Source: Algoriphagus terrigena DSM 22685 (GTDB lineage Bacteria > Bacteroidota > Bacteroidia > Cytophagales > Cyclobacteriaceae). Taken from it: a stretch of DNA of 64,000 nucleotides. The stretch is taken from the NCBI RefSeq assembly GCF_000429445.1, contig NZ_AUBW01000009.1, forward strand, positions 124,001 to 188,000, in the 5' to 3' direction. The notes under the pieces were generated by a model that ran no database searches, was not told the DNA's origin, and saw nothing but the letters and a program-made list of their open reading frames with translations. Below are positions 2,400 through 44,498 of this stretch, one piece after another (position 1 is the stretch's first letter; each line of letters starts with the position of its first letter). The translations under genes and the position numbers were made by a program.

Positions 2400-2963
2400 T
2401 TTTAGGAGGATAGAAAATTAAAATTACTTGTCCGCCGTGGCGGTGGTCAAAACACAGGGTATGCGTAGGCAAATGTCAGGCTGAGTAAGCGGGGTCGAAG
2501 CCCAGAAGACAGCGCTACACACAGGCTTTGAAAATCGATTTCCATGCCAACAAAAAGTCACTTTTCCCCAAGAAAAACCGCGTTTCTGAAGCACTGGCTG
2601 AATGCATGCGAACAAAAACGTTCGCAATCGGGCGTTGGATCCTGAAACTGAAAATCATTGAAGGTTGCCTCGCGCAGGCTATTTGCCGCGACTTGTTTCG
2701 ACTCCTCTCACCAACCAACGCTCGGCATGACAGATAGCAGCCTCCCCGTAATTGAAAGCAGCTTATGACTTTGTCTCTTGCTTTTCGGCTCCTGCTTCTT
2801 CTAAAATCCCCCTACCCCCTTTGTCTATGATTTGCATTCCAAAATGCTGTCCAGAAATAAAGGGGGAGTCGGCCACCGCTCCCTTCTTGTTACTAGCGTC
2901 TTGATACTCGATACCCAAATCTAGCCTCCTACTTAGTACTTTGTACATGGTACTTCGTACTCC
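2400..2963. other. intergenic stretch between P2 and P1, no gene seen
   Basis: There is no convincing gene in these 564 bases. The part next to P1 carries the P1 control region (2534-2633). Near 2696-2735 lies a degraded copy of the TTCGACTCC...CGGCATGACAGA repeat. The end next to P2 (2930-2963) is a GTAC-rich tail with GTACTTTGTACATGGTAC. The short ORFs here have low-complexity translations and no recognisable family. Confidence 0.6.
2534..2633 (-). promoter_or_regulatory. sigma-54-like promoter and upstream activator site for P1
   Basis: The activator site at 2609-2633 reads CGAAC-N6-GTTCG-N4-CGGGC on the plus strand. The promoter-like element at 2534-2549, read on the minus strand, is TGGCATGGAAATCGAT: it keeps the -24 TGGCAT and the G at -13 but not the C at -12. 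The two parts are 60 bp apart, as in the six sister regions. The -12 half is the weakest of the set; the matching activator site and spacing are what make it credible. The predicted leader before the P1 ATG is about 125 nt. Confidence 0.5.
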
Positions 2964-5420
2964 CTACTCGTTCTTCAAGCTATCCACAGGATTCATCAAT
3001 GCCGCTTTTATACTTCTCAGGCAGATTGTACCAAATGCTATGACAAGTGTAATTACCGCAACCATCCCATAGATCCACCATGCAATGTCGATGTGATAGG
3101 CAAAATTCTCAAGCCACATATCCATAAAGAAATAGCCCGCCGGAAAGGCTATGATCAGGGAAATTCCAATCAACTTGATAAAGTCTCTGGCAAGCATCCC
3201 TACGATTTGGTTCACAGTAGAACCCAACACTTTTCGGATTCCGATCTCCTTGATCCGCTGCTCGGCTGTAAAAGTCACCAACCCAAACAAACCAAGGCAG
3301 GCCACGAAGATGGTCATCAAGGAAAGCACCGTTAAAAAAGAGCCCATCTTGGCTTCTTGTATGTAAGTCTCGTTGTATAACTCATCCAAAAACGCGTATT
3401 GAAAAGCCTCCCCTGTGTTGAATCCATTCCATGTTTTCTCCATATCAGCGAGCAAAGGCTGAAGCTCCGACTTTTCTACTTTCAAAATCAGGCTGTAGTA
3501 AGGATTGTAAACCATCATCAAAGGCTTGATAGGTTCCCTGAGCGATTTTGCTACAAAATCTTTTACTACGCCCACTACTTTCACTTCTTCCCTGCCACCC
3601 TGATTGTCAGTCCTCTTTTCAAAGACTTTCCCAATGGGATCCTCGGCGATTCCCAACTCCCGGGCGGCAGTCTGATTGATGATGATGTTGTTTTCTTCCG
3701 AACCCAGATCCAGAGAAAAGTTTCTCCCATCCACTATTTCCATTCCCAATGTTGGGATGTACTCTTCATCGATCCCGTATTGAATCATCCTCAACGAGCC
3801 GGAAGTAGATTCATCCAATACCAGATTTTGGCTGTTTGTATCGGTTGGACCAGATGGGATATAGGCTGATTTTGTCACGCTTTGAACCCGTGGATCTGAT
3901 TTCAATCTGTCTCTAAATACATCCAGATGCTCGCCCAAGAGTCCCGCGTCACGTAAGACAATCAGCTGCTCTTTGTCATATCCCAGATCCTTATTTTGGA
4001 TGTAGTTCATCTGCTGGGATACCACAAGGGTACCAATAATCAGGACGACCGAAACCGCAAATTGGAAGACCACCAAGCTACTTCTGAACCCACTTCTATT
4101 GCTTCTGGTGATTTTCTTTTTCAAAGATTCAATCGGCTGAAATGCCGAAAGGAAAAATGCCGGATATCCGCCTGCCATCAGTGTGACCAATAAAATAAGA
4201 GCTAAAAGAGCCAGGACAACCAACGGCTGGAACAAAAATCCGAGTGAGAGGGATTTGTCGGCGAAATCATTGAAAAACGGAAGTGCCAACTTTGCCGCGA
4301 CAATCCCCAAAACCATCGCAATTGACACCGCAATAAGTGATTCTGACAAAAACTGAAATACCAAATCTTGCTTTCCCGAGCCCATTACTTTTCTCACTGC
4401 AATTTCTTTGGCCCGCTGAGAAGCTCCAGCCGTAGAGAGATTCATGAAATTGATGCATGCAATCAGCAACATAAAAGCCGCTATAGCACAATAAATCAGG
4501 ACGGTTTGCATATCTCCTCCCGCCTCAAAATCACCTTTACCCGCAAACTGATTGTTGAGATGAATGTCAGTAAGAGCTTGAAGTTTAAGAAAAACGTGGT
4601 TTCCTTTTTCAAAAAACTCTTCGAAACCCATCCCCAAACCTTGCTTCATTTGATCCTCCATGTACTTTCTGGTAAGTGCAGGAATTTTAGATTCCACTTG
4701 TTCAGCCGTGGCGCCGTTGTTCAGCAGCAAATAGGTCACGTAGTTGCCGGAAAGCCAACTTTGATTTTTGGCATCCGGATTACCCAACATAGATGCAAGC
4801 ATGCCAAAATCGAAATGGGAATTCTCCGGGATGTTTTCAATCACACCGGTGACTGTGTAGTCCCCCGATAAATCGAAATATTGGCTGGAGTAATAGCCTA
4901 GTCCTTCCAGTGCGATAACCTGATTGATCGGATTTTCCTTCCCAAAAAGAGCATTCGCCTGATCCTCGGTCAGTACGATTGAGTTGGGATTTATAAGTGC
5001 CGTTGCGGGATTTCCGCTGATAAATGGAAGATCAAAAACTTCAAAGAAATTAGAGTCTACCAAAGCTGTATTTCCCTTTCGAGTTACCTTTTCCCCAATT
5101 CTCACTTTGGTATTGGAATGCAGATTCAGGACTCTGGTACCTATTTCCACTTCCGGAATTTCTTCCTTAAACGTCTCTGCGACAGGAGCCATGACACTGG
5201 CCTCACTGAGTGTCTGATCTCCTATTTTAGCATCCAAGGTTACTCTGTAAATACGATCAGAATTCGCAAAAAACCGATCATAGCTTAACTCCTCCGCCAC
5301 GTAAAGACTGATAACGAGACAGGTGGCAATGCCTAGGGAAAGTCCAAGAATGTTGATGAAAGACACCAACCTATTCTTCTTCAGGCTTCTCCAGGCGATT
5401 TTAAAGTAGGTTTTGATCAT
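2964..5420 (-). CDS. FtsX/MacB-type ABC transporter permease (P2)
   Basis: An 818-aa permease paralogue. It has a TM anchor at about 20-42, a periplasmic domain to about 300, an FtsX block with ACINFMNLSTAG at 321-332 and KEIAVRKVMGSGK, a mid-protein helix after the VVFQFAVSVVLI segment, a second periplasmic domain, and a C-terminal FtsX block (ACLGLFGLVTFTAEQR, KEIGIRKVLGS) about 110 residues from the end. Its closest lookalike in the window by length and motif is P11 (also 818 aa, TAEQR...VLGSS). It ends DSLKNE. It is a single gene behind its own sigma-54-like control region (5521-5623). The substrate is unknown. It has no ATPase neighbour, so it probably shares the ATPase at 41629-42327. 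Confidence 0.9.
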   Translation of the reverse strand: MIKTYFKIAWRSLKKNRLVSFINILGLSLGIATCLVISLYVAEELSYDRFFANSDRIYRVTLDAKIGDQTLSEASVMAPVAETFKEEIPEVEIGTRVLNLHSNTKVRIGEKVTRKGNTALVDSNFFEVFDLPFISGNPATALINPNSIVLTEDQANALFGKENPINQVIALEGLGYYSSQYFDLSGDYTVTGVIENIPENSHFDFGMLASMLGNPDAKNQSWLSGNYVTYLLLNNGATAEQVESKIPALTRKYMEDQMKQGLGMGFEEFFEKGNHVFLKLQALTDIHLNNQFAGKGDFEAGGDMQTVLIYCAIAAFMLLIACINFMNLSTAGASQRAKEIAVRKVMGSGKQDLVFQFLSESLIAVSIAMVLGIVAAKLALPFFNDFADKSLSLGFLFQPLVVLALLALILLVTLMAGGYPAFFLSAFQPIESLKKKITRSNRSGFRSSLVVFQFAVSVVLIIGTLVVSQQMNYIQNKDLGYDKEQLIVLRDAGLLGEHLDVFRDRLKSDPRVQSVTKSAYIPSGPTDTNSQNLVLDESTSGSLRMIQYGIDEEYIPTLGMEIVDGRNFSLDLGSEENNIIINQTAARELGIAEDPIGKVFEKRTDNQGGREEVKVVGVVKDFVAKSLREPIKPLMMVYNPYYSLILKVEKSELQPLLADMEKTWNGFNTGEAFQYAFLDELYNETYIQEAKMGSFLTVLSLMTIFVACLGLFGLVTFTAEQRIKEIGIRKVLGSTVNQIVGMLARDFIKLIGISLIIAFPAGYFFMDMWLENFAYHIDIAWWIYGMVAVITLVIAFGTICLRSIKAALMNPVDSLKNE

Positions 5421-5520
5421 GGTCTCGATTGGAAAATTGAAATATTGGAAAATTTAAAGATTATGGGCTCGGCCTGATATCTATGGTTTCAAGTCAACCT
5501 TTAAATTCTCAATAAAGTAA

Positions 5521-5623
5521 TTCCACTTTTATGCCACTGTAAAATCTTTGCTCAAGTACTCAAAAAGGCATAATTTGAATAATAGGATTTTTTAAGCTCG
5601 GACGCTTTTGTTCGCTCTCGGGC
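5521..5623 (-). promoter_or_regulatory. sigma-54-like promoter and upstream activator site for P2
   Basis: The activator site at 5599-5623 is CGGAC-N6-GTTCG-N4-CGGGC on the plus strand. The promoter element at 5521-5536, read on the minus strand, is TGGCATAAAAGTGGAA, with -24 TGGCAT and the -13 G conserved. The parts are 63 bp apart. The activator site sits only 15 bp past the stop of the hydrolase gene (5638), so P2 starts a new transcription unit. Confidence 0.65.
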
Positions 5624-5637
5624 AAATCCCTTGCAAT

Positions 5638-7098
5638 CTATTTATCTGCGATCCACTTTATCAAATCATCAACATCTACAATCGACCATGAGTGTGGATG
5701 TCTTTGTCCATTTGATCTATAACCTTTATTTTCTGTGGGGATAAATTCAACCTTATTACCAAACTTCTTGCTGAGATCTTCGGAAAGGTCTTTCAAAAAA
5801 TAGGCGTTCATATCTTCATAATCGTTCATTCTGTTTTCTTTCCACCACACCGTATCAGGTTCTGTATAAAGCCTGATTTTTACGTCTTCTAACTCGGACA
5901 GGTTGTGTGCATTGTTTGTCCTCTTGGTATAGACTGATTTTTCCTCAAAGTTGGCAAGGCCACTTTCAGGTTTGCCGATTCCAGATTCAAGTAAGTCGAT
6001 GAGCATCTGACTCTCCTGGACAGAGGCAGCCGAAAAATTCCTGTTAATATTTCTTTTTGCATTTTCATAAAGCCCCAGAAGGTCAACAGGGGAATCTATT
6101 GCGAAAACGCCTATAGGTTGGATTTGGCTTTGCGACTGCTTTAAATAGTTCCCCATCAACAGACTGACGTTTCCTCCACTTGAAAATCCGCCGATAAACA
6201 CATTGCCAGTTTCAAGATTGTATTTCGCGAACATCCCAGCAAGCACGCCAAAGAGCTTCTTTTTTTCGTGATCCTCTAGCCAAATTCTCCGATTAAAGGT
6301 CATCAACGCTACTGTTATCCCATTCTCCACAGCAGGTTCCAAGATCTCAAATTCTCTTTTGATGATATCTGGATTTTCTGGGAAACCTGGGAATAAAACT
6401 AGAACCCCATTTGATTTTCTTTTTGGGATGATCAATTCATAGTCATCGGTTTTGTGGGATGTAAATGAATTTTCGAAGGTTTCTTCAAGTTGGCTGCAAT
6501 CTTCTGGAGTCGACACATCCCGAAATATGTTCCATACTTTATCGTTAAAACTTTTGGGGGAAAATGAAAAGACCATCAGGTGCTTATCTAAATCAGGGCA
6601 ATAGAACTCTTTTACTTTTACATGTAGCCGGATTTGCTTTTGGGTGAAAAAGACATCAAAAAGATCAATTGATCCCTCATAAAATCGCTGGTTTGATGAC
6701 TTATTTTTTGAAGAAAATGATGCGACAGACTTTGTGATCTTTTCGAGAGCGATTCCATTATTTTTCCCTACTTCAGCTGTTAAACCTGTGAAATAATCCG
6801 TCATCAACTCCTCAAGACGCTTCTCTGTCATTTCAGCTTGGCCGTCAAAATACCAGACAAAAGAATAGGTCCAGAACTCAGCGTTGGATATATCATCCCA
6901 TCCGGGAGCAAATCGCACCTCTTCGACTCCGTTGAATTTGATTGAAGAAGCAAAAGTCGGTGGCAGAGAGATTGTTTCTTTTCCCCAATTAACAGGAGCG
7001 TCTAAGATGCCGGGGGGTTTACCAACGGTCTTCTCCTGAGCATCGCAGGAAGTAGACAGGAACAAGAATATAAGCAGCGTCCCAAAATAACTTTTCAT
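5638..7098 (-). CDS. alpha/beta-hydrolase-like lipoprotein
   Basis: 486 aa from the ATG at 7098. An upstream in-frame TTG at 7113 is less likely, because the signal sequence MKSYFGTLLIFLFLSTSC begins cleanly at the ATG. Cys18 could be lipidated, though the lipobox (STSC) is weak. Residues 30-215 form a domain I do not recognise. The C-terminal half resembles an alpha/beta hydrolase: LVLFPGFPENP near 233-243 and the nucleophile elbow GFSSG (Ser306), with candidate late His residues in a HPHSW segment about 20 from the end. The substrate is unknown. It lies between P3 and P2, 222 bp after P3, and may be co-transcribed with P3. Confidence 0.75.
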   Translation of the reverse strand: MKSYFGTLLIFLFLSTSCDAQEKTVGKPPGILDAPVNWGKETISLPPTFASSIKFNGVEEVRFAPGWDDISNAEFWTYSFVWYFDGQAEMTEKRLEELMTDYFTGLTAEVGKNNGIALEKITKSVASFSSKNKSSNQRFYEGSIDLFDVFFTQKQIRLHVKVKEFYCPDLDKHLMVFSFSPKSFNDKVWNIFRDVSTPEDCSQLEETFENSFTSHKTDDYELIIPKRKSNGVLVLFPGFPENPDIIKREFEILEPAVENGITVALMTFNRRIWLEDHEKKKLFGVLAGMFAKYNLETGNVFIGGFSSGGNVSLLMGNYLKQSQSQIQPIGVFAIDSPVDLLGLYENAKRNINRNFSAASVQESQMLIDLLESGIGKPESGLANFEEKSVYTKRTNNAHNLSELEDVKIRLYTEPDTVWWKENRMNDYEDMNAYFLKDLSEDLSKKFGNKVEFIPTENKGYRSNGQRHPHSWSIVDVDDLIKWIADK

Positions 7099-7320
7099 AG
7101 AATTTATAGTCAATGTTGGAAAGTGGTAAAGTAAGAACGTTGTGAGGTTGTAAGGGGGTAAAGTGCTGAAAAACGATATGCTATAACCTTTATCTCATCC
7201 AAGTTAGATGAACATACTTTGTACTTGGTACATTGTACATCGTACCTTCTTGTCTCTTGCTTCTCGTCTCTTGACTCTCCTATCTTGATACTAGCGTCTT
7301 TATACTTGATACCAAACTCT
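7099..7320. other. intergenic stretch between P3 and the hydrolase gene
   Basis: No gene is seen. The end next to P3 (7214-7320) is a mosaic of TTTGTACTTGGTACATTGTAC, TTGTCTCTTGCTTCTCG and TTGATAC words, the same 3'-flank repeat type found after P1, P2 and P11. No activator site or sigma-54-like promoter was found here, which fits read-through from P3. Confidence 0.5.
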
Positions 7321-9843
7321 TCACTCGCTCCTCAGATTTTTTACCGGGTTCAATCGGGCAGTTTTGATGGATTGAAAACTGACCGTCAACAGAGCGATCA
7401 GCAATCCTGCTCCGCCTGACACAGCAAACATCCACCACTCCAATGAAATCCTAAACGCAAAATCCCGAATCCAAAATTCCATGAAATACCAGGCTATTGG
7501 AACTGCGATCAGAAAACCCAACAAGACAGGTTTTAGGAAGTCCTTTGTAAGAAGATTTAAAATCTGCGGTTCAGAAGCTCCGTTGATTTTCCGGATGCCA
7601 ATTTCCTTTGTCCTTCTGACGGATTCATAAGAAGACAGACCAAACAATCCCAAACAAGCTATGAAAATGGCCAAGCCGGTGAAGAAGTTGAAAATCATAT
7701 AAAACTGCTGGTCAGCTTTGTATTGCCTGTTGAAGAAATCATCCAGGAAGAAGTACTTGAAAGGTTCTTCCGGATAGATCTTTTTCCATTCAGACTCAGC
7801 AAAATCAATGACCGCTTCCAGATTCTTCGGAGCTTCTCCTGCCCTGCTAAGATTCAGGGTAATGAATTCACTGTAGTTGGGTTGGAGATAGAATATTATA
7901 GGCTCAAAATCATTCTTCAACGATTTATGATGATAATCCTTCAACACTCCCACTATTTCTTTTACTCCACCAAATACTGCGATCTGCTGGTGAATCGCGT
8001 CACTGGGTTTTTCATAACCAAGGCGTTTGGCGGCAGTTTCGTTGATTAAGATCGCATGATCTTTGGTACCGAAATCCGGAGCCGTCTCATTTGATTTCAA
8101 GATTTCTCCTCCACTTATCGGCTGGTCTTCGTCAAGAAATCTACCTGCTGCCAGTTCCATCCCAAAAGTGGAAGTGTACTCATAATCCACTCCCATGACA
8201 TGAAAAAACTTGGCATTTTCAGGTTGATCGAGTCTCCTTACGAAATTATTCCCGCGAATCTCAGTCGAAGGTACGTTTCGCGAAAAGGTGACATTTTCAA
8301 TCGTATTGAAGCTTTTCAGGGAAGCTTTGTATGCAGTCATTTTCGTCTGAAACTCCGGGATACTGTTGGCAAATCTTGCTCCTTCGATCACCAGTTTCTG
8401 GTCGATATCGACTCCCAAGTCATAGTTTCTCATAAAGGAAAGTTGCCTGTTGACCGTGAAAACCACCATCATAAATATGGCTGCTACCGTAAACTGAAAT
8501 ACAACAAGGCCTTTTTTCATCCATTGTCCCTGTTCTGAACTGGAAAGATTACCTTTCAAAACAGCAATCGGTTGGTACCCTGATAGGATAACGGCGGGAT
8601 ACAATCCGCTCAAAAGAGTTCCTGCAATGAAAATCGAAACAATCCCCAGGATCACTTTTGGCTCGACCAAGATTGAATTCTCAAAAGGAATATCAATCAA
8701 AGTCGAAAAAACGGGCATACTCAGATAGAATAGAAAAATCGCCAAACCCAATCCAAAGGCATTGTATAGAAATGCCTCCATCATGTGTTGTAAAATCAGT
8801 TGAATCCGAGAGGCGCCGATGGTTTTCCTCAGTCCGGATTCTTTGGCTCGCTCCATAGACCTGACAGTCGACAGGTTCACAAAATTCACCCAAGCCAATA
8901 CCAAGATGCAGATTGCTACTATAGAAAGACTGTAAACGGTTTGCGCATTCCCATTCACCTCCAACTCATTTTTCAAATTCGAATTCAAATGAATGTCAGG
9001 TACTGGCTGGAAGCTCATCTGATAAGCAAAGCCTTGCTCTCTTCGATCAGCAGTATTGAGATCTACAATGGGTTGAAATGAAGCCGCAAGTTGGCTGGCA
9101 TCGACTTCTGGTTTTAGAAGTATGTAGGTGTAGAAGTTTTCCCAGAACCACGCATTTTCTGTTTCATCGCGGTAGTCAGTTTGCCCGTCGTCCCAATTGT
9201 ACATGGTTGGGTAAGAAACCAAAAAATCAAAATTCAAATGGGAATTTTCGGGCGGATCAGCTGCCACTCCTGTAATCTGAAGATCTGTGGTACCAAAGTA
9301 GGTTTTGCACTGGATAGTTTTTCCAACCGGATTGACAGATCTCCATTCTTCTCCGAAATACTTTTCAGCGGTTGTTTCCGAAATCACGGCTGAATTGGGA
9401 GCAACAAGCGCATCTGAAGAATTTCCCAAAACCAAAGGGAACGTAAAGACTTCAAAGAAGGCATTGTCTGTGTAGAAGACTTTCTTCTCTTCAAAAACCA
9501 GCTTCTCCTCTCCTCTCTGAACAGAAAAAACTCCGGGCTGGGGCATCAACCTTGCAAAGGTTTCGACTGATTCAGGAAAGCTTTCTTTCAATGTTCTACC
9601 CACTACCGGGAAAGTTGTAGCGAGACTCGTTTCGAGTTCTCCGTTCTTGTATTGGGTCAGGTCAACTCTAAAAATCCTGTCGGAATTCTCATGAAACAGA
9701 TCGTGGCTTTTCTCAAAACTGACATACTGAAAAATTACCAGGCAGGCCGCCATGCCTATTGCTAGACCAAGGATATTGATGACAGAAAAAACCTTGTTTT
9801 TGAGCAGGGACCGCCAGGCGATTTTGATGTAGTTTTTCCACAT
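7321..9843 (-). CDS. FtsX/MacB-type ABC transporter permease (P3)
   Basis: The longest permease in the array (840 aa). The N-terminal TM helix is at about 20-42. The first FtsX block, at about 317-345, has the variant AWVNFVNLSTVRS followed by KESGLRKTIGAS. The second block is near 727 (ACLGLFGLSSYESVRR, KEIGIRKINGAS). The tail is VKNLRSE. The Trp in place of the usual Cys (AWxN rather than ACIN) and the KTIG motif are shared only with P4, so P3 and P4 form one subfamily, now separated by the 10-17 kb island. The ATG at 9843 fits. It follows the control region 9920-10020 and may be transcribed with the hydrolase gene downstream. Confidence 0.9.
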   Translation of the reverse strand: MWKNYIKIAWRSLLKNKVFSVINILGLAIGMAACLVIFQYVSFEKSHDLFHENSDRIFRVDLTQYKNGELETSLATTFPVVGRTLKESFPESVETFARLMPQPGVFSVQRGEEKLVFEEKKVFYTDNAFFEVFTFPLVLGNSSDALVAPNSAVISETTAEKYFGEEWRSVNPVGKTIQCKTYFGTTDLQITGVAADPPENSHLNFDFLVSYPTMYNWDDGQTDYRDETENAWFWENFYTYILLKPEVDASQLAASFQPIVDLNTADRREQGFAYQMSFQPVPDIHLNSNLKNELEVNGNAQTVYSLSIVAICILVLAWVNFVNLSTVRSMERAKESGLRKTIGASRIQLILQHMMEAFLYNAFGLGLAIFLFYLSMPVFSTLIDIPFENSILVEPKVILGIVSIFIAGTLLSGLYPAVILSGYQPIAVLKGNLSSSEQGQWMKKGLVVFQFTVAAIFMMVVFTVNRQLSFMRNYDLGVDIDQKLVIEGARFANSIPEFQTKMTAYKASLKSFNTIENVTFSRNVPSTEIRGNNFVRRLDQPENAKFFHVMGVDYEYTSTFGMELAAGRFLDEDQPISGGEILKSNETAPDFGTKDHAILINETAAKRLGYEKPSDAIHQQIAVFGGVKEIVGVLKDYHHKSLKNDFEPIIFYLQPNYSEFITLNLSRAGEAPKNLEAVIDFAESEWKKIYPEEPFKYFFLDDFFNRQYKADQQFYMIFNFFTGLAIFIACLGLFGLSSYESVRRTKEIGIRKINGASEPQILNLLTKDFLKPVLLGFLIAVPIAWYFMEFWIRDFAFRISLEWWMFAVSGGAGLLIALLTVSFQSIKTARLNPVKNLRSE

Positions 9844-9919: not shown

Positions 9920-10020
9920 TTCCACTATTATGCCAGCGCAAACGCGGCAAATGAGTTCAGTGTGACAGAAAGAGCACTTTTTACAGAAATTCTATCGGAC
10001 AGTTTTGTCCGCCAGTGGGC
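9920..10020 (-). promoter_or_regulatory. sigma-54-like promoter and upstream activator site for P3
   Basis: The activator site at 9996-10020 is CGGAC-N6-GTCCG-N4-TGGGC on the plus strand; the first two half-sites form a perfect inverted repeat. The promoter element at 9920-9935, read on the minus strand, is TGGCATAATAGTGGAA, nearly the same as the P2 element. The gap between the two parts is 61 bp. The predicted leader before the P3 ATG is about 65 nt. Confidence 0.65.
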
Positions 10021-10385: not shown

Positions 10386-11609
10386 ATGAAAATACAATCA
10401 ATACTATTGGATGAGAGAATTGGCGCAGCAAATGTTCTCGTGGATCTAACGATTAAAGAATACCTGGCAGTCGCAAGCGACATAACAGATAACAATGAAT
10501 TCCAAAGAAGAAAGGTTATTAAATCGAAAATTAAAGAAATTCTAAGAGAAGATTTGTTAAAAGGCTGCTCTATTCCGCCAATTGTTCTATCAATTAAAAC
10601 TGACAGTCTCGGAGAGGATTTCAACTACAAAACATTTAGCGCAACCGACATAGATCATATTCTAAAAGCATTTGAAGAAAAAACCTTATTGATTATAGAC
10701 GGCTTACAAAGAACCTACGTGATGTTGGGTATTGAAGAGGAATTACAACGTGAGGAAAAGCTGCATGGGAAAAAATCTGAAGTTTTTGAAAAATTTCTTG
10801 AGCAAAAAATTAGAGCAGAGATTTACGTTGGATTAGACAGGTTAGGTATTCTATATAGAATGATTACCTTAAATACTGGTCAAACAACGATGTCAACGAG
10901 ACATTTAATGGAGATATTGTATTTTGACTATCGGCAAACTGGCATCGATGACATAAAGTTTGTTACAGATAAACAGGGCGATGTTATTCAAGCAAATACA
11001 AATGAGTTCAATTTTAAAGATGCGTTGGACGGGTTTAATTCGTATCTAGAAAAGGATGAGAATCTTTTTGAGAGGACTGAAATACTAGATAATATCAAAA
11101 CATTAAATACACTTGCAAAAGAGGAGTATAAGAAGGACTTGTTTAAGGAGTTTATGATTACATATAAAAAGCTTCTCGATGCATTTGTCACATATTCACA
11201 AGATTGGAAGTATAATCCAGAAGATTTTAATATTTCTGAACTGGCAATAAAAGCGTTACCCTTTGGGAAATCTATTGTGGAAATTTTTAAACGTTCTCAA
11301 GCCCTAACCGGGTTTGGGGCGGCTGTAGGGTATTTAAAGGTAAATCGAGAATTAACTATTGACGATTTTAATAAGATGATGGACTCGCTTAATGAAAAAG
11401 GAGGAGATTTTGATTACGGATTTAAGCTGATATTGAAATATTTGGATATTATAAGAGACAAATCAAAAAAGATAGGTAATGATCAAAGATTCTTTTTTAG
11501 ACATGTATTTGAGTTTCTTTTCGATCCGAACAGTGAAAGCCATCTGATTTTTGATCAGGCGGTTGAGTCCGCTTTTAATAAAACGCGTTCAGAAAAGCTT
11601 CCAAAATAA
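10386..11609 (+). CDS. DGQHR/ParB-like domain protein, first gene of a two-gene module
   Basis: 407 aa. Residues 58-120 carry a segment like the DGQHR/DUF262 (ParB-superfamily) signature: KGCSIPPIVLSI, then LLIIDGLQRTYVM with Asp105-Gly106-Leu107-Gln108-Arg109. It differs from the classic DGQHR by Leu-Gln in place of Gln-His. Around 135-175 comes the usual follow-on pattern, a 'LNTGQTTMSTRHLME' segment, as in DndB-like and DUF262 proteins. These families occur in DNA-modification and phage-defence loci and can bind nucleotide or DNA; the activity here is not known. The gene is markedly A/T-rich compared with the permeases and its stop is 6 nt before the next ATG, so the two form an operon. 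The family is fairly clear, the role inferred. Confidence 0.7.
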   Translation: MKIQSILLDERIGAANVLVDLTIKEYLAVASDITDNNEFQRRKVIKSKIKEILREDLLKGCSIPPIVLSIKTDSLGEDFNYKTFSATDIDHILKAFEEKTLLIIDGLQRTYVMLGIEEELQREEKLHGKKSEVFEKFLEQKIRAEIYVGLDRLGILYRMITLNTGQTTMSTRHLMEILYFDYRQTGIDDIKFVTDKQGDVIQANTNEFNFKDALDGFNSYLEKDENLFERTEILDNIKTLNTLAKEEYKKDLFKEFMITYKKLLDAFVTYSQDWKYNPEDFNISELAIKALPFGKSIVEIFKRSQALTGFGAAVGYLKVNRELTIDDFNKMMDSLNEKGGDFDYGFKLILKYLDIIRDKSKKIGNDQRFFFRHVFEFLFDPNSESHLIFDQAVESAFNKTRSEKLPK

Positions 11610-11615
11610 GTAATA

Positions 11616-12836
11616 ATGCCTCTAAAAGTTCCTATTGAAGGAAGCTCGGATTTCTCCGAATTTTCATTTTCCCATTTTGAGCAAAATGGCAGCAATTATT
11701 TCGTTCTTAATAATGATGATGGTTCTGGAGAACAAATTAGAATTGAATTTCCATTTTCAATTGATAAAATTCCCCTCGATTATACGGTCTCATTATTTGC
11801 TTTCAGAAACATTTATTATTCTCAAAGTGATTTAATTGAATTACGTCTGCACGAGAAAGTAGCTGAGTCAGGTCGTATTGGATACATATATTTATTAAGC
11901 GCGTTAGTAGACAGGGAGAATAGTAATTTCAATAAGCATACGATACCCTATGTTTACCTTACGTATCTGAAGCTCATCACGGGAATAAATCCTTTCAAAG
12001 AAATTATTCCAACAACACAATCTGACATTTATAAAATCAGTGATTTCTACAATGACGATTTGGTAATTACGGCCATTTGCGATCAATTGGTTGTTGATGT
12101 TATAGACTTTTCTTTTGATGATTATTTATATCTTTTCTATACACATGGGTTTATTTATGTAGAGGACGTCTTAACAACTACGAACTATAATCCAATTCCA
12201 TTTGTTAAAGAAAATTTTGAATCAATTAAAGAGTCGTTATACAATGGCCGATATTCTTGGAAGATAATTGGCGCATCTAAAACTTTGAGAAGTGAAGTTT
12301 ATCCGTCTGTTCTCATCAAGAGGCTTATTTCGGAAAAACACTATTTTCTTTCAAAGTTTCATATTCTCTATCAAGTAATAGAATTGCTAATTTCAGACGT
12401 TCTGAAAAACGAGATAATGTTAACCTTTAATAATTTAGACAATGAAGTCTCAGGACAAAAAATAAAGGAGACATTCTCAATGCTTGCGACGGAAGGATAT
12501 CGGATCAAACTTCTTATTAACTCATATTGTAAGCATACAATCGGTTTCGATACGGTTATGATTGAAAAAATAAACCATTTTTTTAGTGAAATTAGGGTCA
12601 ATTTACCGGAGTCGGATGGCGATTCAGTATCAAATAAATTATCGTCTTTGATTTACAAGCATCGTAATAATTTAGTCCATAATTATCGAGTGATTCATCA
12701 AGAAGGAGATAGAGTGAACATGTATTTAGTTCTGCTAGATGAACTAAATTCATATTTCGAGTATTTAATTTTTGAAATATTGCATTCTTATAAACGAAGA
12801 TTATCAATTTCAGAGATAGAAACAACGACTGTATAA
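11616..12836 (+). CDS. HEPN-motif protein, second gene of the two-gene module
   Basis: 406 aa, no family recognised over the N-terminal 240 residues. The C-terminal third looks all-helical (FHILYQVIELLISDVL near 248-263) and contains Arg350-Asn-Asn-Leu-Val-His355, an Rx4H motif with the polar residue after Arg that is typical of HEPN nucleases, followed by another helix. HEPN proteins of this kind (ApeA-like, abortive-infection proteins) usually cut RNA. The gene begins 6 nt after the DGQHR-like gene and shares its A/T-rich composition: the last 60-base line (12781-12840) has 16 G/C. It could instead be a non-catalytic helical partner, because one motif match is not proof. Confidence 0.65.
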   Translation: MPLKVPIEGSSDFSEFSFSHFEQNGSNYFVLNNDDGSGEQIRIEFPFSIDKIPLDYTVSLFAFRNIYYSQSDLIELRLHEKVAESGRIGYIYLLSALVDRENSNFNKHTIPYVYLTYLKLITGINPFKEIIPTTQSDIYKISDFYNDDLVITAICDQLVVDVIDFSFDDYLYLFYTHGFIYVEDVLTTTNYNPIPFVKENFESIKESLYNGRYSWKIIGASKTLRSEVYPSVLIKRLISEKHYFLSKFHILYQVIELLISDVLKNEIMLTFNNLDNEVSGQKIKETFSMLATEGYRIKLLINSYCKHTIGFDTVMIEKINHFFSEIRVNLPESDGDSVSNKLSSLIYKHRNNLVHNYRVIHQEGDRVNMYLVLLDELNSYFEYLIFEILHSYKRRLSISEIETTTV

Positions 12837-19667: not shown

Positions 19668-19750
19668 GGCTTTTGTGATTCATGGTAGTCTAGGTTGACC
19701 GTTTTCTTGACTGTAATCTCGCTTCTTTGGTCTTGTCTCTCGCTTCTGTG

Positions 19751-19806: not shown

Positions 19807-19863
19807 CTTCTCTATCGTCTCTCAGCACCTACTTGATACTTGCGTCTTGATACTAGATACTCT

Positions 19864-25135: not shown

Positions 25136-25162
25136 CTCTAACATCTTAATACCAGCTGCTTG

Positions 25163-28823: not shown

Positions 28824-28924
28824 TCCTACTATTGTGCCATTACCAAATCAGGCAAACCAAGCTCTAATCGCCATTTTTCAAAAAATCACCCGTCCGGCAC
28901 GGACATTTTTGTTCGGTTTCGGGC
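28824..28924 (-). promoter_or_regulatory. sigma-54-like promoter and upstream activator site for the DUF4097-P7-P4 unit
   Basis: The activator site at 28900-28924 is CGGAC-N6-GTTCG-N4-CGGGC on the plus strand. The promoter element at 28824-28839, read on the minus strand, is TGGCACAATAGTAGGA: full -24 TGGCAC, the G at -13 conserved, -12 is G instead of C. The two parts are 61 bp apart. The predicted leader is about 30 nt. Confidence 0.7.
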
Positions 28925-30048: not shown

Positions 30049-32475
30049 TCACTCATTCTTGATGCTCTTCACAGGATTGGCCCAAGCTGCTTTGAGCGTC
30101 TGGGAGGTAACCGTGATCGCTGCGATCGTTCCAGCCAGCAGCCCCGCCCACAAAAACACCGTCCAACTGACTCCGATCTTGTAAGCGAAATCATCAAGCC
30201 AGTTGTTCATCCCAAACCAAGAGATCGGGATGGCGATCAAAAAGCCAAACGCGACGAGTTTCAGGAAATCCTTGCCCAAAAGCATCAGGATATTGCCAGT
30301 CTCGGCTCCCATCACTTTGCGGATGCCAATCTCCCGTGTGCGCTGCTCCGTGGCAAAGGTCACCAAGCCCAACAGCCCCAAAACAGAAATAAAGATCGTC
30401 AAGGCGGAGAAAAAGGTGAAGATTGTCTTGACCCGATTTTCCGCCTCATACTGGCGATTGAATCCTTCATCCACGAAGTTTGGCTCGAAAGGAAAATCAG
30501 GTCTGGCTTCCGCCCACTCGTCTTTTAAATAGGCCAACACCTGGTCTCTTTGGTCTGCGTCCATCTTTACACTCACCTGATTCATCCGATTCTGGGGGAT
30601 GTAAAATACAATTGGAACGATCGGCTGATGGAGACTTTCGAAGTGAAAGTCCTTCATCACTCCGGTCACAAAGCCACGTCTGCCTCCATAGAGAAACTGC
30701 TTGCCGATAGCCTCCTCTGGACTGCTCCACCCCACTTGTTGCACCGCGGTTTCGTTGAGGACAAAAGCCTCGGTAGAGTCGCTCGCCAGTGTGAAATCAA
30801 AGTCACGTCCGGCAACCAAGGGAATACCATAGGTCTCCAAAAAGTTGTGTCCGACCTGAATATCCGCAATCCGGATGTTCAGCTGGCTCATTTCACCATT
30901 AACCTCGGCTGTACTTCCCTGCGAGTCCAAAAGTCGTCCAGAGGGAACTCTTGTGGACACTGTCACAGACTGAATCCCCGGGTGATTTTCCAAGCGATCC
31001 TTGAAAATCCGAAAGTTCTCTGTAATCCGCGCACTGGTAGGCAGGACGACGATATCGTCCTTTTTGAATCCCAGGTCCTTGCTCTGCATGAAGTTCAGCT
31101 GGTTCACCACCACCAAGACGGCTACGATCAAGATTACCGAAATGGCAAACTGTCCGATCACCAAGACACTACGGAAGCGCTCGTGGACTTTTCCTGCTTT
31201 AAAAGCTCCCTTGAGCACTTTGGCAGGGACAAATCCCGACAAAAACAAGGCGGGATAACTACCCGAAATGAAGCCCACGAATGCTATAATCCCAAAAATG
31301 AGCAGCAGATATTGCGGATTTTGAATGAAATTCAAGCTCAGTGGCCGCTCGGTGAAGTCCGAGAATGTGGGCAGGAATAGATAGACCAACATCAAGGCTA
31401 AGACCATGGAGAAAAAGGTCATGACAAATGACTCTCCCAAAAACTGTTTGATCAACAATCCACGATCGGCACCCATCACCTTCCTCAACCCCACTTCCAT
31501 TGAGCGTAGAGAAGACCGCGCTGTGGACAGGTTCATGAAATTGATACAGGCGATCAGCAGGATGAAAAACGCCACTGCCAAGTAGATGTACACGTAATCG
31601 ATATTGCCGTTTGGCTCGATCTCGGAGTCGAGATTCGAGTGGAGATGCACATCGCCGATCGGCCAGAGAATCAGCTGAGTGCCCTTAGACACGGGAATTC
31701 CGGCTTGGTTTTCACCCATGTGCCGGTCGATCAGCGCGGGTAGTTTGGCTTCGAATTCTTTGTAATCCAATCCGGCTCTCAGCTTGATAAAGGTGGAGAA
31801 GTTATTCGACCCAAAGTTGGACATGAAAGGCTCCAAACCGCCGTAAAACTGGACCACCGGAACCATCGACGCCAAAAAGTCGACGTGGAAATGGGAATTT
31901 TCAGGCATGTCTTTCATCACTCCGCGAACTTGGAAAGTCGTTTCCTGTCCGTTCAGTACTGCCAAAAGTTCTTTGCCCACCGCATTCTCATCTCCGAAAT
32001 AACGCTTCGCAGTACTTTCGGAGAGCACAATTCCATCTGCTTCATTGAGTGCGGATTTCCCTTCTCCCTCCAAGATCTCCCAGGAAAACAAATCAAAAGC
32101 CTCCGGATCGGCAAAGAAAAACCGTTCTTCCTCGAACGCGTCGCCCCCTGACTTGATGAGCGGGTCGAAATTGAAGAGGCGGGCAGAGACCTCTACATCC
32201 TCCGGAAAGTCAGACTTGATCAAGGGCCCAAACGGAGGAGCGGTATGGCCCAGATGCAAGCTCGTCTGTCCGTCGGCGTTGTTCCAAGCCCGCGACACGC
32301 GAAAGATGCGATCTGCGTCCGGATGGTATTTGTCATAGCTCACCTCAAACTGCACGTAGAGCAAAATGACAATACTCACCGCCATCCCGATTGCCAGACC
32401 GATCAGATTGATCAGCACATACATCGGATGTTTTCTGGCATTGCGAAAGACAATCTTGAAATAGTTTTTAAACAT
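30049..32475 (-). CDS. FtsX/MacB-type ABC transporter permease (P8)
   Basis: 808 aa. First FtsX block: ACINFMNLSTARSSLRS then MEVGLRKVMGAD. C-terminal block: SVLGLLGLVTFATEQRT and REIGIRKVMGAE. The tail is VKSIKNE. The RSME variant links it with P5. The gene lies only 72 bp after the P9 stop, the tightest permease-permease spacing here, so co-transcription with P9 is very likely. The start ATG is followed by FKNYFKIVFRN. The substrate is unknown. Confidence 0.9.
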   Translation of the reverse strand: MFKNYFKIVFRNARKHPMYVLINLIGLAIGMAVSIVILLYVQFEVSYDKYHPDADRIFRVSRAWNNADGQTSLHLGHTAPPFGPLIKSDFPEDVEVSARLFNFDPLIKSGGDAFEEERFFFADPEAFDLFSWEILEGEGKSALNEADGIVLSESTAKRYFGDENAVGKELLAVLNGQETTFQVRGVMKDMPENSHFHVDFLASMVPVVQFYGGLEPFMSNFGSNNFSTFIKLRAGLDYKEFEAKLPALIDRHMGENQAGIPVSKGTQLILWPIGDVHLHSNLDSEIEPNGNIDYVYIYLAVAFFILLIACINFMNLSTARSSLRSMEVGLRKVMGADRGLLIKQFLGESFVMTFFSMVLALMLVYLFLPTFSDFTERPLSLNFIQNPQYLLLIFGIIAFVGFISGSYPALFLSGFVPAKVLKGAFKAGKVHERFRSVLVIGQFAISVILIVAVLVVVNQLNFMQSKDLGFKKDDIVVLPTSARITENFRIFKDRLENHPGIQSVTVSTRVPSGRLLDSQGSTAEVNGEMSQLNIRIADIQVGHNFLETYGIPLVAGRDFDFTLASDSTEAFVLNETAVQQVGWSSPEEAIGKQFLYGGRRGFVTGVMKDFHFESLHQPIVPIVFYIPQNRMNQVSVKMDADQRDQVLAYLKDEWAEARPDFPFEPNFVDEGFNRQYEAENRVKTIFTFFSALTIFISVLGLLGLVTFATEQRTREIGIRKVMGAETGNILMLLGKDFLKLVAFGFLIAIPISWFGMNNWLDDFAYKIGVSWTVFLWAGLLAGTIAAITVTSQTLKAAWANPVKSIKNE

Positions 32476-35173: not shown

Positions 35174-35866
35174 CTACTCCTTGATCACCTTCGCGGAACC
35201 GGAAACACCAATGCTCTTCTTCTCGGGATCGCCGCGGTAATAGACATTTCCAGATCCGGAGGCTCCGACAGTCAAGACATCCGTGACTCCGATCGAAGTA
35301 GTACCTGAACCCGACTTACCGATCTTGACAGCTTCCGCCACAAAATCGATCGCTTCCAGGTTGCCGGATCCCGACTGTCCGATGCTCGCACTTTCGGCTT
35401 GACCGCCTTCGATGGTGATCTTTCCAGATCCACTCATACCGATGTCCAGTTTTTCGGCATTGATATTTCGGGTTGACAGACTACCAGACCCCGAAAGTCC
35501 GATGGTGAAATTTTTAGCTCCAAAGTCAGATTTCAACCTCATGTTACCGGAGCCACTCGTTCCGACAGATTCAAGTTCTCTCACGGTGATGTAGACTTTC
35601 AGATCCACGTTTTTCCAGTTCCCTTTTTCCAGCTTGATCTCGAGTCTTTCTCCGTCCAGATCCGTGATTACTTTGCTCAGGTCAAAGCTGTTGGCTTCGA
35701 GTCTGACTTCATCCTTGGAGCCTTTGGTGATCTCTACATCCCAGTTGCCACCGCTTTCTATCTGCGTGAAAGTACCGGGAGTTCGGATTTCAGACCTTTG
35801 GGCCATTGCTACAAAACCCATCAGGGAAAGGGCAAAAGACAGTGCGGAAATCTTAAATGTTTTCAT
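35174..35866 (-). CDS. GIN-domain (DUF2807) secreted protein, GIN2
   Basis: 230 aa. A cleavable signal peptide (MKTFKISALSFALSLMGFV, cut near AMA-Q) replaces the lipobox of GIN1. The rest is the GIN/DUF2807 beta-helix with SGSG turns repeated from about 100 to 225. It is a close paralogue of GIN1: both begin the mature domain with RTPG(S/T)FT and GG(S/N)WDV. It is exported, function unknown. It is the first gene behind the control region 35992-36093. Confidence 0.85.
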   Translation of the reverse strand: MKTFKISALSFALSLMGFVAMAQRSEIRTPGTFTQIESGGNWDVEITKGSKDEVRLEANSFDLSKVITDLDGERLEIKLEKGNWKNVDLKVYITVRELESVGTSGSGNMRLKSDFGAKNFTIGLSGSGSLSTRNINAEKLDIGMSGSGKITIEGGQAESASIGQSGSGNLEAIDFVAEAVKIGKSGSGTTSIGVTDVLTVGASGSGNVYYRGDPEKKSIGVSGSAKVIKE

Positions 35867-36301
35867 GTGTATTTTTTTTTGAATTGGTCACATGGAATCT
35901 CGCTTGATAGATAAAAATCTCTCATTTGACGTTTTGGGTCATGCTCGATTTCATGGGGTTTTGGTGTGTGTTAGTTTCCAGATTTATTAATGCCAGAGAT
36001 TGTGCCAAGGTAAAAACTCCCCTTTCCATTGTCTCAAGCGGTTTAGTGAAGAAGATTTTGTCCGAGAAAAGTCAGTTTTGACCGTAAGCGGACGAAGACA
36101 GTGTTCAGTCGGCAGTCTCAGCATGCAAACCTCTGTCCCTTGGATGCAGATTCTTCACTAAAAGTTGCATCAGAAATAGTATCGAGCAGCAAGACGTAAG
36201 TATCAAGATCAAAGACGCAAGAGGGAGCCGAAGTATCAAGAACCTCTTCCGTCTTCCGTCATCCAGCACCCAACATCGGACACCTAGCTTCTGACACAAA
36301 A
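35867..36301. other. intergenic region between P10 and GIN2
   Basis: 435 bases without a gene. It holds the GIN2 control region (35992-36093). Between it and the GIN2 ATG are two words shared with the region upstream of GIN1: CATGGAATCTCGC at 35891-35903 and CATGCTCGATTTCATG at 35940-35955. The P10-side part (36100-36300) is low-complexity. Confidence 0.6.
35992..36093 (-). promoter_or_regulatory. sigma-54-like promoter and upstream activator site for GIN2-P9-P8-GIN1
   Basis: The activator site at 36069-36093 is AAGTC-N6-GACCG-N4-CGGAC on the plus strand, the most diverged of the set in its first half-site. The promoter element at 35992-36007, read on the minus strand, is TGGCACAATCTCTGGC: full -24 box and conserved -13 G. 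The two parts are 62 bp apart. The predicted leader is about 115 nt. Confidence 0.6.
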
Positions 36302-41384: not shown

Positions 41385-41488
41385 TGCATAGAAAGTGCCA
41401 GCACACAAAAAAAGGTCTGAGAGTCGCTCCCAGGCCTTTTTCGTTTTTTGGCTCTGTCCGCCAAGGGACTGTTTGTTCGCTGGCGGGC
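41385..41488 (-). promoter_or_regulatory. sigma-54 promoter and upstream activator site for P11-P10
   Basis: The best sigma-54 match in the window: at 41385-41400, read on the minus strand, TGGCACTTTCTATGCA has the complete -24 TGGCAC and a -12 TGCA at the canonical spacing. The activator site at 41465-41488 is GGGAC-N5-GTTCG-N4-CGGGC on the plus strand, with one base less in the first gap than the other six copies. The two parts are 65 bp apart. The predicted leader before the P11 ATG is about 70 nt. The ATPase terminator lies between the two parts. Confidence 0.8.
41407..41441 (-). terminator. rho-independent terminator after the ATPase gene
   Basis: On the minus strand, AAAAAGGCCTG and its partner CAGACCTTTTTTT enclose a small loop and end in a run of seven T. 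It lies about 190 bp past the ATPase stop. The stem is inside the P11 control region, between the activator site and the promoter. Confidence 0.75.
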
Positions 41489-41628: not shown

Positions 41629-42327
41629 TTAAACGTGAAACTGCTCCCGGATATTCTCCGTCACTACTTTGCCATCGAACACGTTGATGATTCGGTGGGC
41701 GTAGTTTGCATCATGCGGAGAGTGCGTTACCATCACGATGGTAGTCCCTTCGTTGTTGAGTTCTTCCAAGAGACGCATCACTTCTTCACCGTTAGTTGAA
41801 TCCAAGTTACCGGTAGGTTCATCGGCGAGGATCACGGAAGGCTTGGCGACGATTGCTCGGGCGATCGCCACACGCTGCTGCTGACCACCTGACAGCTGCT
41901 GAGGGAAGTGGTTTCTTCGGTGCATGATGTTCATGCGGGTCAGTACTTCTTCCACTTTTTTCTTCCGCTCATCTGAAGGAACCTTGAGGTAAAGAAGCGG
42001 GAGCTCCACGTTTTCAAACACAGTCAGCTCATCGATCAGGTTGAATGATTGGAACACAAAGCCAATGTTGCCCTTTCTCAAAGCAGATCTTTGGCGCTCC
42101 GAAAACTTGGCAACTTCCTGATCCAGGAAAAAATATTCTCCACCATCCGGATTGTCCAAGAGCCCGATGATATTCAGCAGGGTGGATTTACCACAGCCTG
42201 AAGGGCCCATGATGGCGACAAATTCGCCTTTCTTGATTTCAATTTGGATTCCATCCAAAGCGGTGGTTTCTACTTCCTCAGTAGCATACATCTTTCTGAG
42301 GGCGACGGTTTTGATTACGTTTTGCAT
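41629..42327 (-). CDS. ABC transporter ATP-binding protein (LolD/MacB type)
   Basis: 232 aa, the only ABC ATPase in the window. Walker [10 protein letters not shown] at 41-49, Q-loop Gln93, signature LSGGQQQR at 145-152, Walker B VILADE at 165-170, D-loop NLDS at 174-177, H-loop His202. Length and sequence fit the ATPase that pairs with FtsX/MacB permeases (LolD/MacB N-domain class). It is cytoplasmic, binding the inner-membrane permeases. It follows the adaptor gene, with a small four-helix-bundle gene between. By inference it powers all eleven permeases, unless others are encoded elsewhere. Confidence 0.95.
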
Positions 42328-42858: not shown

Positions 42859-44112
42859 TCATTTTAGCTCTAGAATTTCGTTGGTACCAAAGTTCTCGTA
42901 GCCGCTGACAATGACTTTTTCACCCTCAGTCAGACCTTCAAGAACTTCATAGAATTCCGGATTCTTTCTACCCAAGCGGATGTTGCGCTTTTCTGCTACA
43001 CCCGTCGTTGGATTAACTACAAAGACCCAGTTTCCTCCGGTATCTTTGAAGAATCCACCGGTTGGCAGGAGAAGGCTGGTTTCTTTTTGACCCAGTTCCA
43101 GACGGATTCTGACACTCTGCCCGCGGCGGATTCCCTCAGGACTCTCTCCGGTGAACACCATGTCTACCTCAAAGCGGCTGTTGGTAATAGTAGGATAGCT
43201 TTTGCTGATCTCCAACTCGTGATCCTTACCACTCAGTGTAAACTTGCCTCGTAGTCCGACGCTGATCCTCGGAAGATAAAGTTCATCGATTGGCACCCTG
43301 ACTTTAAACTCATCCAGGATATCTATCTGTCCATAGCGCTGACCTGGGTTGATCGCCTGCCCTATCTCAAGTTGATCCGGAGTGGCTAGCTGACCCGCAA
43401 TCGGTGCTGTGATGACCAGGTTATTCAGGATATTTCCAACTCCGTTCAGCGAAGCATTCATCCTGCCTTCAGACTGGCGAAGTTGCGTCAGCTGATAGGA
43501 CCTTGCCATCGAATCACTCTTATAGGACTTATAGGTCAACTCCTTTCTTTTCAGGTTGTACTCGTATTGCTCCTTCACTTCTTCAAATTCCCGGTCAGAG
43601 ACCAACTTCTTCGAGTGAAGCTCTTTGAATCTTTTATACTGAGGCTCGAGCAAGCTAATTTGATAATCTATCTCTGCCAGCTGACCCAACTGCACCAAGT
43701 CATTTTGATCCAAGAAAAGGCGGGTCTGTCTGAGGTTGTTGATTTGTTCGTAGAGCATCGTCTCGCGCTGCATCACGTCCAGTTGAAGGTTGGAGTTGTT
43801 GAGAACTAGGATGGTGTCTCCTTTTTTCAGCAGAGCTCCTGATTCACGCACGACCTGGTCTACCACTCCCCCTTCGATCGCGTCCAGATAGACGGTTCGG
43901 GAGGGCTCGATCTGTCCAGACACGAGGATGTAATCGGTAAACTCCCCTTTGGAAACTGTTGCGATGCTCAATCGTTCCTGATCAACATTCATCGTGGATC
44001 TGTGGTCTGCAAATCCGATCTGGTAAATAATTCCCCCCAATAAAACGGCGCCACCGGCTACGGCAGCGATTCTTCGGAGAGTCCAGGTTTTCTTTTCTAT
44101 TTTTCTATCCAT
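42859..44112 (-). CDS. HlyD/MacA-family periplasmic adaptor subunit
   Basis: 417 aa from the ATG at 44112 (MDRKIEKKTW); a longer frame to 44169 would start inside the promoter and is rejected. An N-terminal TM helix lies at about 13-35 (IAAVAGGAVLLGGIIYQIGF), then a beta-barrel/lipoyl half, a long helical hairpin around 110-210 (coiled coil), the second lipoyl half and a C-terminal barrel ending in VIVSGYENFGTNEILELK. This is the membrane-fusion protein that would join the inner-membrane permeases to an outer-membrane exit duct. No TolC-like gene lies in the window. It is the first gene of the unit adaptor-four-helix-ATPase. Confidence 0.9.
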   Translation of the reverse strand: MDRKIEKKTWTLRRIAAVAGGAVLLGGIIYQIGFADHRSTMNVDQERLSIATVSKGEFTDYILVSGQIEPSRTVYLDAIEGGVVDQVVRESGALLKKGDTILVLNNSNLQLDVMQRETMLYEQINNLRQTRLFLDQNDLVQLGQLAEIDYQISLLEPQYKRFKELHSKKLVSDREFEEVKEQYEYNLKRKELTYKSYKSDSMARSYQLTQLRQSEGRMNASLNGVGNILNNLVITAPIAGQLATPDQLEIGQAINPGQRYGQIDILDEFKVRVPIDELYLPRISVGLRGKFTLSGKDHELEISKSYPTITNSRFEVDMVFTGESPEGIRRGQSVRIRLELGQKETSLLLPTGGFFKDTGGNWVFVVNPTTGVAEKRNIRLGRKNPEFYEVLEGLTEGEKVIVSGYENFGTNEILELK

Positions 44113-44498
44113 TGTGTGAAAATGCCATTCTCGGCTCGTCCTCCATGTGCCAAAGGTTGTGCCATGCAAAAAATTGCCTCAGGGCACTCCAAAACAGCAT
44201 TTGCAGAAAATGCAGTTTTCGACTCTCGAACATTTTCGTCCGCCACCGAACAAAAGTGAATCAAAGACGGTTTTTTCTTCCTACCTTCTTCAAGGAAAAG
44301 TTGAAGCCAAAAACTGCTCAAATCGTCCGAAAATGGCACTTTTTGGTCGAATTCTACAAGTACAAAAAAGCGGCAAACTTTTGGAAAGAAGGGAGACAGA
44401 AGATGATCTAGCTTCGAGTAGGGTTTTGCCACCTCGTTCTCCGATCTGCCGTCTTTCAACTTTTCAACAAACAGCAAAAAACATAACCGCCTTTATTC
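44113..44498. other. divergent regulatory region between adaptor and response-regulator genes
   Basis: 386 bases separating the minus-strand transporter genes from the plus-strand regulator genes. It holds the adaptor control region (44149-44251). On the plus strand, TGGCAC at 44334-44339 lies 165 nt before the regulator ATG but lacks a -12 element at the right spacing, so I do not call it a promoter. The activator site at 44227-44251 could serve both directions. Confidence 0.55.
44149..44251 (-). promoter_or_regulatory. sigma-54-like promoter and upstream activator site for adaptor and ATPase
   Basis: The activator site at 44227-44251 is CGAAC-N6-GTCCG-N4-CGAAC on the plus strand. The promoter element at 44149-44164, read on the minus strand, is TGGCACAACCTTTGGC: complete -24 box, TTG at the -12 position, with G replacing the final C. 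The two parts are 63 bp apart. The predicted start at about 44138 gives a 26-nt leader, a natural distance for the ATG at 44112. Confidence 0.7.

Follow-up and report, generated by a model that had tools for sequence, protein, structure and literature searches.

The 64,000-nucleotide stretch analysed here (the window) covers positions 124,001 to 188,000 of contig NZ_AUBW01000009.1 of Algoriphagus terrigena DSM 22685, or C8:124001-188000 in the contig numbering used for this 5.78-Mb genome of 57 contigs, and carries a recurring module in which an activator site is followed at a fixed distance by a sigma-54-type promoter. These modules lie upstream of genes for ATP-binding cassette (ABC) exporter permeases, an adaptor and an ATPase, and the reading favoured here, with a probability of about 0.83, is that a two-component system controls a dispersed exporter regulon through this combination of site, probably bent spacer and sigma-54-type promoter. 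In the proposed mechanism, an intramembrane-type histidine kinase (45877-47229) would phosphorylate an NtrC-type activator (44499-45887), which would then bind tandem GTYCG/CGRAC half-sites and contact sigma-54 RNA polymerase at TGGCAY-N7-G promoters starting 59-62 bp away, the intervening A+T spacer with its 10-bp phasing pre-bending the DNA into a short loop. The predicted targets are the shared adaptor/ATPase operon, the double-MacB/FtsX permeases of about 800 residues and GIN/LiaG-like proteins; ATPase, adaptor and permeases would rise together. As for the trigger, a cell-envelope or antimicrobial-peptide signal is a guess, made because the system combines a near-loopless kinase with exporters of the FtsX type and a LiaG-like gene.

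Five of the sites in the window are strong. The initial annotation had described seven copies of CGRAC-N6-GTYCG-N4-CGGRC; with up to two mismatches allowed the window holds five matches, of which 2609, 5599 and 28900 are exact and 9996 and 44227 have one mismatch, and it is these five that are unambiguous, the copies at 36069 and 41465 being degenerate and failing the pattern. In 100 dinucleotide shuffles the mean number of matches at the same tolerance was 0.52, and one shuffle reached five. Read on the minus strand, on which all seven sites and promoters lie, the strong sites take the form GYYCR-N4-CGRAC-N6-GTYCG with TGGCAY following 59-62 bp on. The predicted site upstream of permease P1 (2609-2633, 44.6 bits with its promoter) is followed after 59 bp by the promoter TGGCAT-N7-G at 2534-2549; that of P2 (5599-5623, 48.2 bits) after 62 bp by 5521-5536; that of P3 (9996-10020, 46.3 bits) after 60 bp by 9920-9935; and that upstream of the LiaG-like frame and permeases P7-P4 (28900-28924, 47.2 bits) after 60 bp by 28824-28839. 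The fifth (44227-44251, 37.2 bits), conserved across genera, lies between the regulator and adaptor genes, 62 bp from the promoter of the adaptor/ATPase genes (44149-44164). These scores, 37-48 bits, come from a site-plus-promoter matrix built from other genomes only.

The two weak sites also precede promoters of the same type. The one upstream of GIN2 (36069-36093) has a degraded third half-site, with a fourth half-site, CGGAC, 4 bp on, and its TGGCAC promoter (35992-36007) starts at 61 bp; the one upstream of P11 (41465-41488) has an N5 gap and a GTCCC half-site, and its TGGCAC promoter (41385-41400), at 63 bp, has TGC at -12. In all seven window promoters, which start 59-63 bp after their sites, a G stands 12 bases past the first G of TGGCAY, as the initial annotation had reported. 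Its further statement that other permease spacers lack copies also holds, as no further position in the matrix scan of the window scores like the strong five. Comparison of the matrix scores with background separates the seven: the strong five stand far above the best of 12 first-order Markov sequences (3.9 bits), while the weak pair, at 3.7 (36069) and 0.7 bits (41465), fall within this null. The matrix scores thus rule out that all seven sites are equally good, and shuffles, control motifs and the foreign-genome matrix rule out chance for the strong five. The weak sites are plausibly decayed members of the family; a promoter of the 41465 type with a decayed site is found only at loci L077 and L079 among the 68 relatives' loci where the ATPase was located. 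Activation of the regulator itself from the 44227 site was also considered and rejected, as the plus strand has no TGGCAY at 55-70 bp; the sole TGGCAY within 170 bp there lies at 91 bp and lacks the G.

Relatives in other genera carry the module as well. The nearest named orthologs of the regulator, at 97% identity, belong to Algoriphagus aestuariicola and A. oliviformis, and in 80 named loci around regulator orthologs every palindrome CGRAC-N6-GTYCG (89/89) has TGGCAY at 59-62 bp, 68 of these being orthologous and hence non-independent copies of the adaptor promoter and 21 being other promoters. Seven control motifs (four with altered gaps, one reversed, two scrambled) gave 0/34 strand-hits with TGGCAY at this distance. 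The region adjoining the regulator gene holds the exact palindrome in 68/80 loci; among the other 12, ten match nine of the ten fixed positions, nine of them with TGG[CT]AY at 57-64 bp and L155 without, L148 matches 7/10, and L147 has no site in the mere 396 bp beside its regulator.

Sites away from the regulator repeat the arrangement. Sixty were examined out of 123 motif matches, 58 from 23 other genomes whose regulator is at least 79% identical and two from the other 94 genomes; the 58 are not immediately beside the regulator, although a few lie within 3-4 kb of it. Left out were seven own-genome matches, 17 adjacent to the regulator and 39 in the remaining genomes, eight of which appear tRNA-gene-like by eye. 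TGG[CT]AY stands at 59-62 bp from 58/60 of these sites, with 21, 16, 16 and 5 cases at 59, 60, 61 and 62 bp, and this fixed distance, the same as in the 89 palindromes above, is what would be expected of an activator site acting through a loop. In 57/60 the first matching frame, starting within 450 bp, is a MacB/FtsX permease (42) or an ABC ATPase (15); of the remaining three, two have a permease or ATPase at a greater distance and one has no match. As the search used seven profiles made from window proteins, unprofiled genes may intervene. The initial proposal of a sigma-54-type regulon with a fixed distance between site and promoter is therefore supported by genome-wide and cross-genome tests.

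The relatives also change how the site is to be understood. In several distant, Fulvivirga-type relatives it reads GTTCG-N4-CGGAC-N6-GTTCA-N4-TGAAC, which is two 14-bp palindromes 20 bp apart, so the three-part motif first noticed corresponds to three of four half-sites. Such comparisons replace the 24-25 bp unit originally proposed by a tandem of GTYCG/CGRAC half-sites, to which the site belongs. The 25-bp motif itself is present in all 24 of the 118 family genomes that encode a regulator of at least 79% identity, with 82 matches vs 4 for the control, and is near control level in the other 94 (41 vs 30): 39 vs 28 in the 87 whose regulator is more distant, 2 vs 2 in the seven with no regulator at E 1e-100.

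The segment between site and promoter has a regular composition of its own. When the spacers of relatives are aligned to the -24 box, AT-rich and GC-rich blocks alternate with a repeat of about 10 bp, A+T being highest near -6, -16, -26, -36, -46 and -56 relative to that box. The sample for this and for the promoter logo was the 60 sites, reduced to 58 after duplicates were dropped, of which the 56 with a promoter were used. In these 56 spacers the power at 10.0 bp reaches 48.7, compared with maxima of 2.9 under permutation and 9.6 under cyclic shift, and it was reached in 0/1000 of either; the flanks lack the periodicity (peaks 0.75 and 0.78). The 11 own-genome spacers and the 68 orthologous adaptor spacers peak at 9.5 bp. 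A wedge model gives a mean predicted bend of 60.9 degrees in the spacers vs 36.8 when permuted and 39-41 in the flanks, and 19/56 single spacers pass p 0.05 vs 6 and 7 of 56 in the flanks. The promoter-phased A+T periodicity suggests that bending is built into the spacer. It could also arise merely as a side effect of the terminator hairpins that end the genes before it, since 17/67 spacers fold with z < -2 (11 of them, by our count, with an ATPase frame as the next matching gene) and several have terminator-like hairpins ending at the -24 box. This explanation is doubtful, as the 26/56 spacers without an uninterrupted 7-pair helix in the predicted fold keep the 10.0-bp peak (53.0 vs a cyclic-shift maximum of 18.9), and the wedge model likewise favours curvature over it. 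Terminator-like hairpins between activator site and -24 box were seen, for example, at L187, L207, L211, L242 and the own-genome site C1:483278, and in the window at 41417-41433, between the 41465 site and its promoter. Some of these end at the promoter and could shield it from the gene upstream.

The regulator (44499-45887, plus strand) has the domains of an NtrC-type activator, namely a receiver, the sigma-54 AAA+ domain (Sigma54_activat) and a Fis-type helix-turn-helix (HTH_8), and is likely the binder of the sites, an assignment supported indirectly by the palindrome beside its gene and by its co-occurrence with the motif. The kinase (45877-47229, plus strand) begins with two abutting membrane helices and almost no periplasmic loop, the hydrophobic stretch covering about residues 5-53 by hydropathy only. 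It was found in 79/80 loci, within the first 85 residues as one merged hydrophobic stretch in 53 and as two in 26. Two N-terminal helices with a very short loop are predicted features of intramembrane sensing, and the intramembrane-sensing kinases of envelope stress have a similar near-loopless N-terminus. The genome also encodes RpoN (PF04552 at C17:108004-108480, 6.1e-57), which carries the RpoN box ARRTVAKYR.

The promoters have the -24 GG with a G 12 bases on, as expected for sigma-54. The 56-promoter set was picked by TGG[CT]AY and by the fixed positions of the site, which for that reason do not vary within it; the unselected G at index 13 occurs in 55/56 of the relatives' promoters, 67/68 adaptor promoters and 21/21 other promoters of the named loci. 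A T at index 11, two bases before the -12 G, is found in 56/56, 68/68 and 13/21 respectively, and was dropped as a rule because of the last figure. Most relatives have TTGG(C) in the adaptor promoter.

Several observations weigh against the favoured reading, beginning with the promoter and the activator themselves. The textbook TTGC, with C at -12, is mostly absent: the C at index 14 is present in 12/56, 7/68 and 3/21 of the same three promoter sets. Of 80 orthologs, 50 have the activator loop GSFTDA, as in the window, and 30 have GAFTDA; none has GAFTGA, of which the loop keeps the F and T while the fifth residue is changed. The unusual -12 would be accounted for if the palindrome were bound by a repressor or other factor and the TGGCAY boxes were read by a different sigma factor. 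That is very improbable, as TGG[CT]AY with G 12 bases on, at a fixed 59-62 bp from a site far upstream of the polymerase, fits sigma-54 enhancer control, as do the conserved NtrC-type neighbour and the intact rpoN. A better candidate for a different binder is a paralogous activator on contig C17, which is 61% identical to the window regulator, differs from it by one residue in the recognition helix, and carries related half-sites (GTCCG/GTTCA/TGAAC) in its own promoter, so that it could possibly cross-bind the window sites. The sites and sigma-54 promoters would then be real and the C17-type NtrC paralog, alone or with the window regulator, would be the most likely other binder; in this genus a matching palindrome does lie upstream of the C17-type gene (own L010; L248). 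However, CGRAC-N6-GTYCG occurs in 0/19 of the C17-type upstream regions read outside the genus, C17-type promoters differ in both spacing and -12 element, and the palindrome adjoins the window-type regulator in the 68 loci counted above, all of which makes binding by the paralog improbable. In 20/20 relatives read, TGGCAY stands 33-55 bp ahead of the start of the paralog (L010:7431-7560; L248-L267), with such half-sites upstream; the paralog is thus probably a related activator that switches on its own gene through a similar yet distinct site.

Further difficulties arise at the scale of the genome. The inner palindrome occurs at 21 places vs 25 for the reversed control, so that by itself it proves nothing and the context carries the argument: 10/21 have TGGCAY at 59-62 bp, all ten with G at index 13. 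Among the others, C1:203508 has TGGTAC at 60 bp and C8:82687 has TGGCAT at 50 bp, about one helical turn shorter; the remainder include sites within reading frames and a hairpin, as well as C2:30601 and C23:23025, neither with a good promoter. The 25-bp pattern with one mismatch occurs at 11 places vs 5 for the control, which is likewise counted among the difficulties. In the window, the weak sites 36069 and 41465 rank 6th and 8th by matrix and neither is significant alone. Some permeases also stand apart: the pair at C8:97871-102863 is in no site-headed run, and neither it nor C1:560247, C2:34142 and two C41 permeases has a palindrome within 400 bp. Lastly, the 24 motif-bearing genomes are closely related, so the co-occurrence of motif and regulator is a correlation and not proof, and could stem from shared ancestry within the clade.

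The claim that the whole transporter set is controlled can be kept only in part. The regulon is not bounded by the window, as sites elsewhere in the genome rule this out, and on contig C8 sites head co-directional gene runs (frames of at least 150 residues, gaps within runs up to 529 bp) that, by reading of this map, take in 20/22 of the permeases of the 800-residue class, four of them only via weak sites. The siteless permeases of the window lie within such runs, so that control of the whole set rests on presumed read-through, and the siteless permeases elsewhere, listed above, fall outside it. Double-MacB permeases come in two size classes genome-wide, of about 800 and of 863-904 residues. 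A palindrome within 400 bp was found only for the shorter class; the ten longer permeases read have none at this distance, although the site C22:65577 lies about 480 bp ahead of one. Three of the longer class that were scanned have about 80 extra N-terminal residues.

In comparison with known systems, the NtrC and ZraSR regulons likewise have an activator of receiver, AAA+ domain and Fis helix-turn-helix with a paired kinase, and inverted-repeat sites upstream of TGGCAY-N7-G; ZraSR is an example of an envelope-stress two-component system using sigma-54. Unlike these, the window system would target an exporter-permease array, its -12 mostly lacks the C, its loop is GSFTDA and its spacer is regularly phased. 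The Lia/Bce envelope-stress modules of Bacillota also combine a near-loopless kinase, FtsX-type ABC permeases and a LiaG-like protein, but with an OmpR/LuxR-type regulator in place of a sigma-54 activator; the kinase is likened to theirs by architecture. The window permeases, ATPase and adaptor resemble the ADOP duplicated permeases (TIGR03434) and DarBCD, the exporter of darobactin (NF038008, NF038007, NF038010): when two of the permeases, the ATPase and the adaptor were compared with NCBIfam, these models were among the best matches, all below curated cut-offs. For ADOP the two permeases reach 272.5 and 292.4 bits against a cut-off of 622.3, and among the listed matches of the adaptor only the general RND_mfp exceeds its cut-off (131.1 vs 94.9).

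The role of sigma-54 in Bacteroidota is, in our judgement, poorly known. The available portion of a 2025 study (PMC12316311) describes sigma-54 as less explored in phyla other than Pseudomonadota and reports, from computation, that sigma-54 promoters are enriched ahead of COG0577 (FtsX-like) ABC antimicrobial-peptide permeases in Bacteroidia, calling this the first such evidence; that portion stays at the level of COG enrichment and names no activator, activator site or spacer architecture. Curvature between enhancer and promoter has a precedent in Klebsiella, where a passage of PMC3897727 cites A/T-tract curvature between the NtrC site and the nifLA promoter (Cheema et al. 1999); here the phase is common to dozens of promoters in many genera, and among the matches listed in a single literature search on the topic none describes a regulon-wide fixed curvature phase. 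The phrase "duplicated orphan permease" appears in PMC11573002. Among the papers listed in searches of open-licence literature, none describes this system in its title or abstract opening. What is new is the half-site tandem, the -12 element that keeps the G and mostly lacks the C, and the promoter-phased 10-bp periodicity of the spacer. The analysis spells out the promoter grammar base by base, names a candidate activator and lists its predicted targets for Algoriphagus; it also supplies dozens of naturally occurring short sigma-54 enhancers in which to study how DNA curvature may replace integration host factor (IHF). A large permease array would be tied to one switch common to the ATPase/adaptor operon, which would explain the assembly of the permeases as exporters. 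A wider proposal is offered tentatively, and we lean somewhat against it: that a promoter module of about 100 bp is used family-wide, with tandem half-sites, a spacer pre-bent with 10-bp phasing that makes IHF unnecessary, and a -12 without C that suits a GAFTDA-type activator, so that one intramembrane kinase would raise the common ATPase/adaptor along with tens of interchangeable permeases as an envelope defence.

Of the window's 11 minus-strand permeases, of about 800 residues each, a domain scan of seven showed MacB_PCD and FtsX, each in most cases as two stretches, and the other four match MacB_PCD. Among them lie two GIN-domain proteins, the LiaG-like protein, the ABC ATPase and the HlyD-type adaptor, all on the minus strand, and the regulator and kinase genes are transcribed divergently from these. 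P1, P2 and P3, each with its own site, occupy 39-9843; P7-P4 form a co-directional run headed by site 28900 (17256-27598, including the domain-scanned 17256-19667). Upstream of them lies the LiaG-like frame (27851-28783), whose assignment is below the NF049997 cut-off (48.7 vs 285 bits). GIN1 (29139-29834) and GIN2 (35174-35866) match PF10988 and enclose P9 and P8 (30049-34974, with 30049-32475 domain-scanned), and P10 (36302-38665) and P11 (38849-41305, two stretches each of MacB_PCD and FtsX) follow. Pfam gave no domain in the frames 5638-7113, 10386-11609, 11616-12836, 15365-16510, 27851-28783 and 47324-47839. The ATPase (41629-42327) is MacB/LolD/DarD-like, and the periplasmic adaptor (42859-44112) is HlyD/DarC-like. 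As listed, the adaptor frame starts with TTG at 44169 and overlaps the promoter, the first in-frame ATG being at 44112; C8:113181-115754 shares this start problem, with a promoter inside the called frame. Shortly past the signalling genes, a fused MsrA-MsrB methionine sulfoxide reductase is encoded at 48080-49189.

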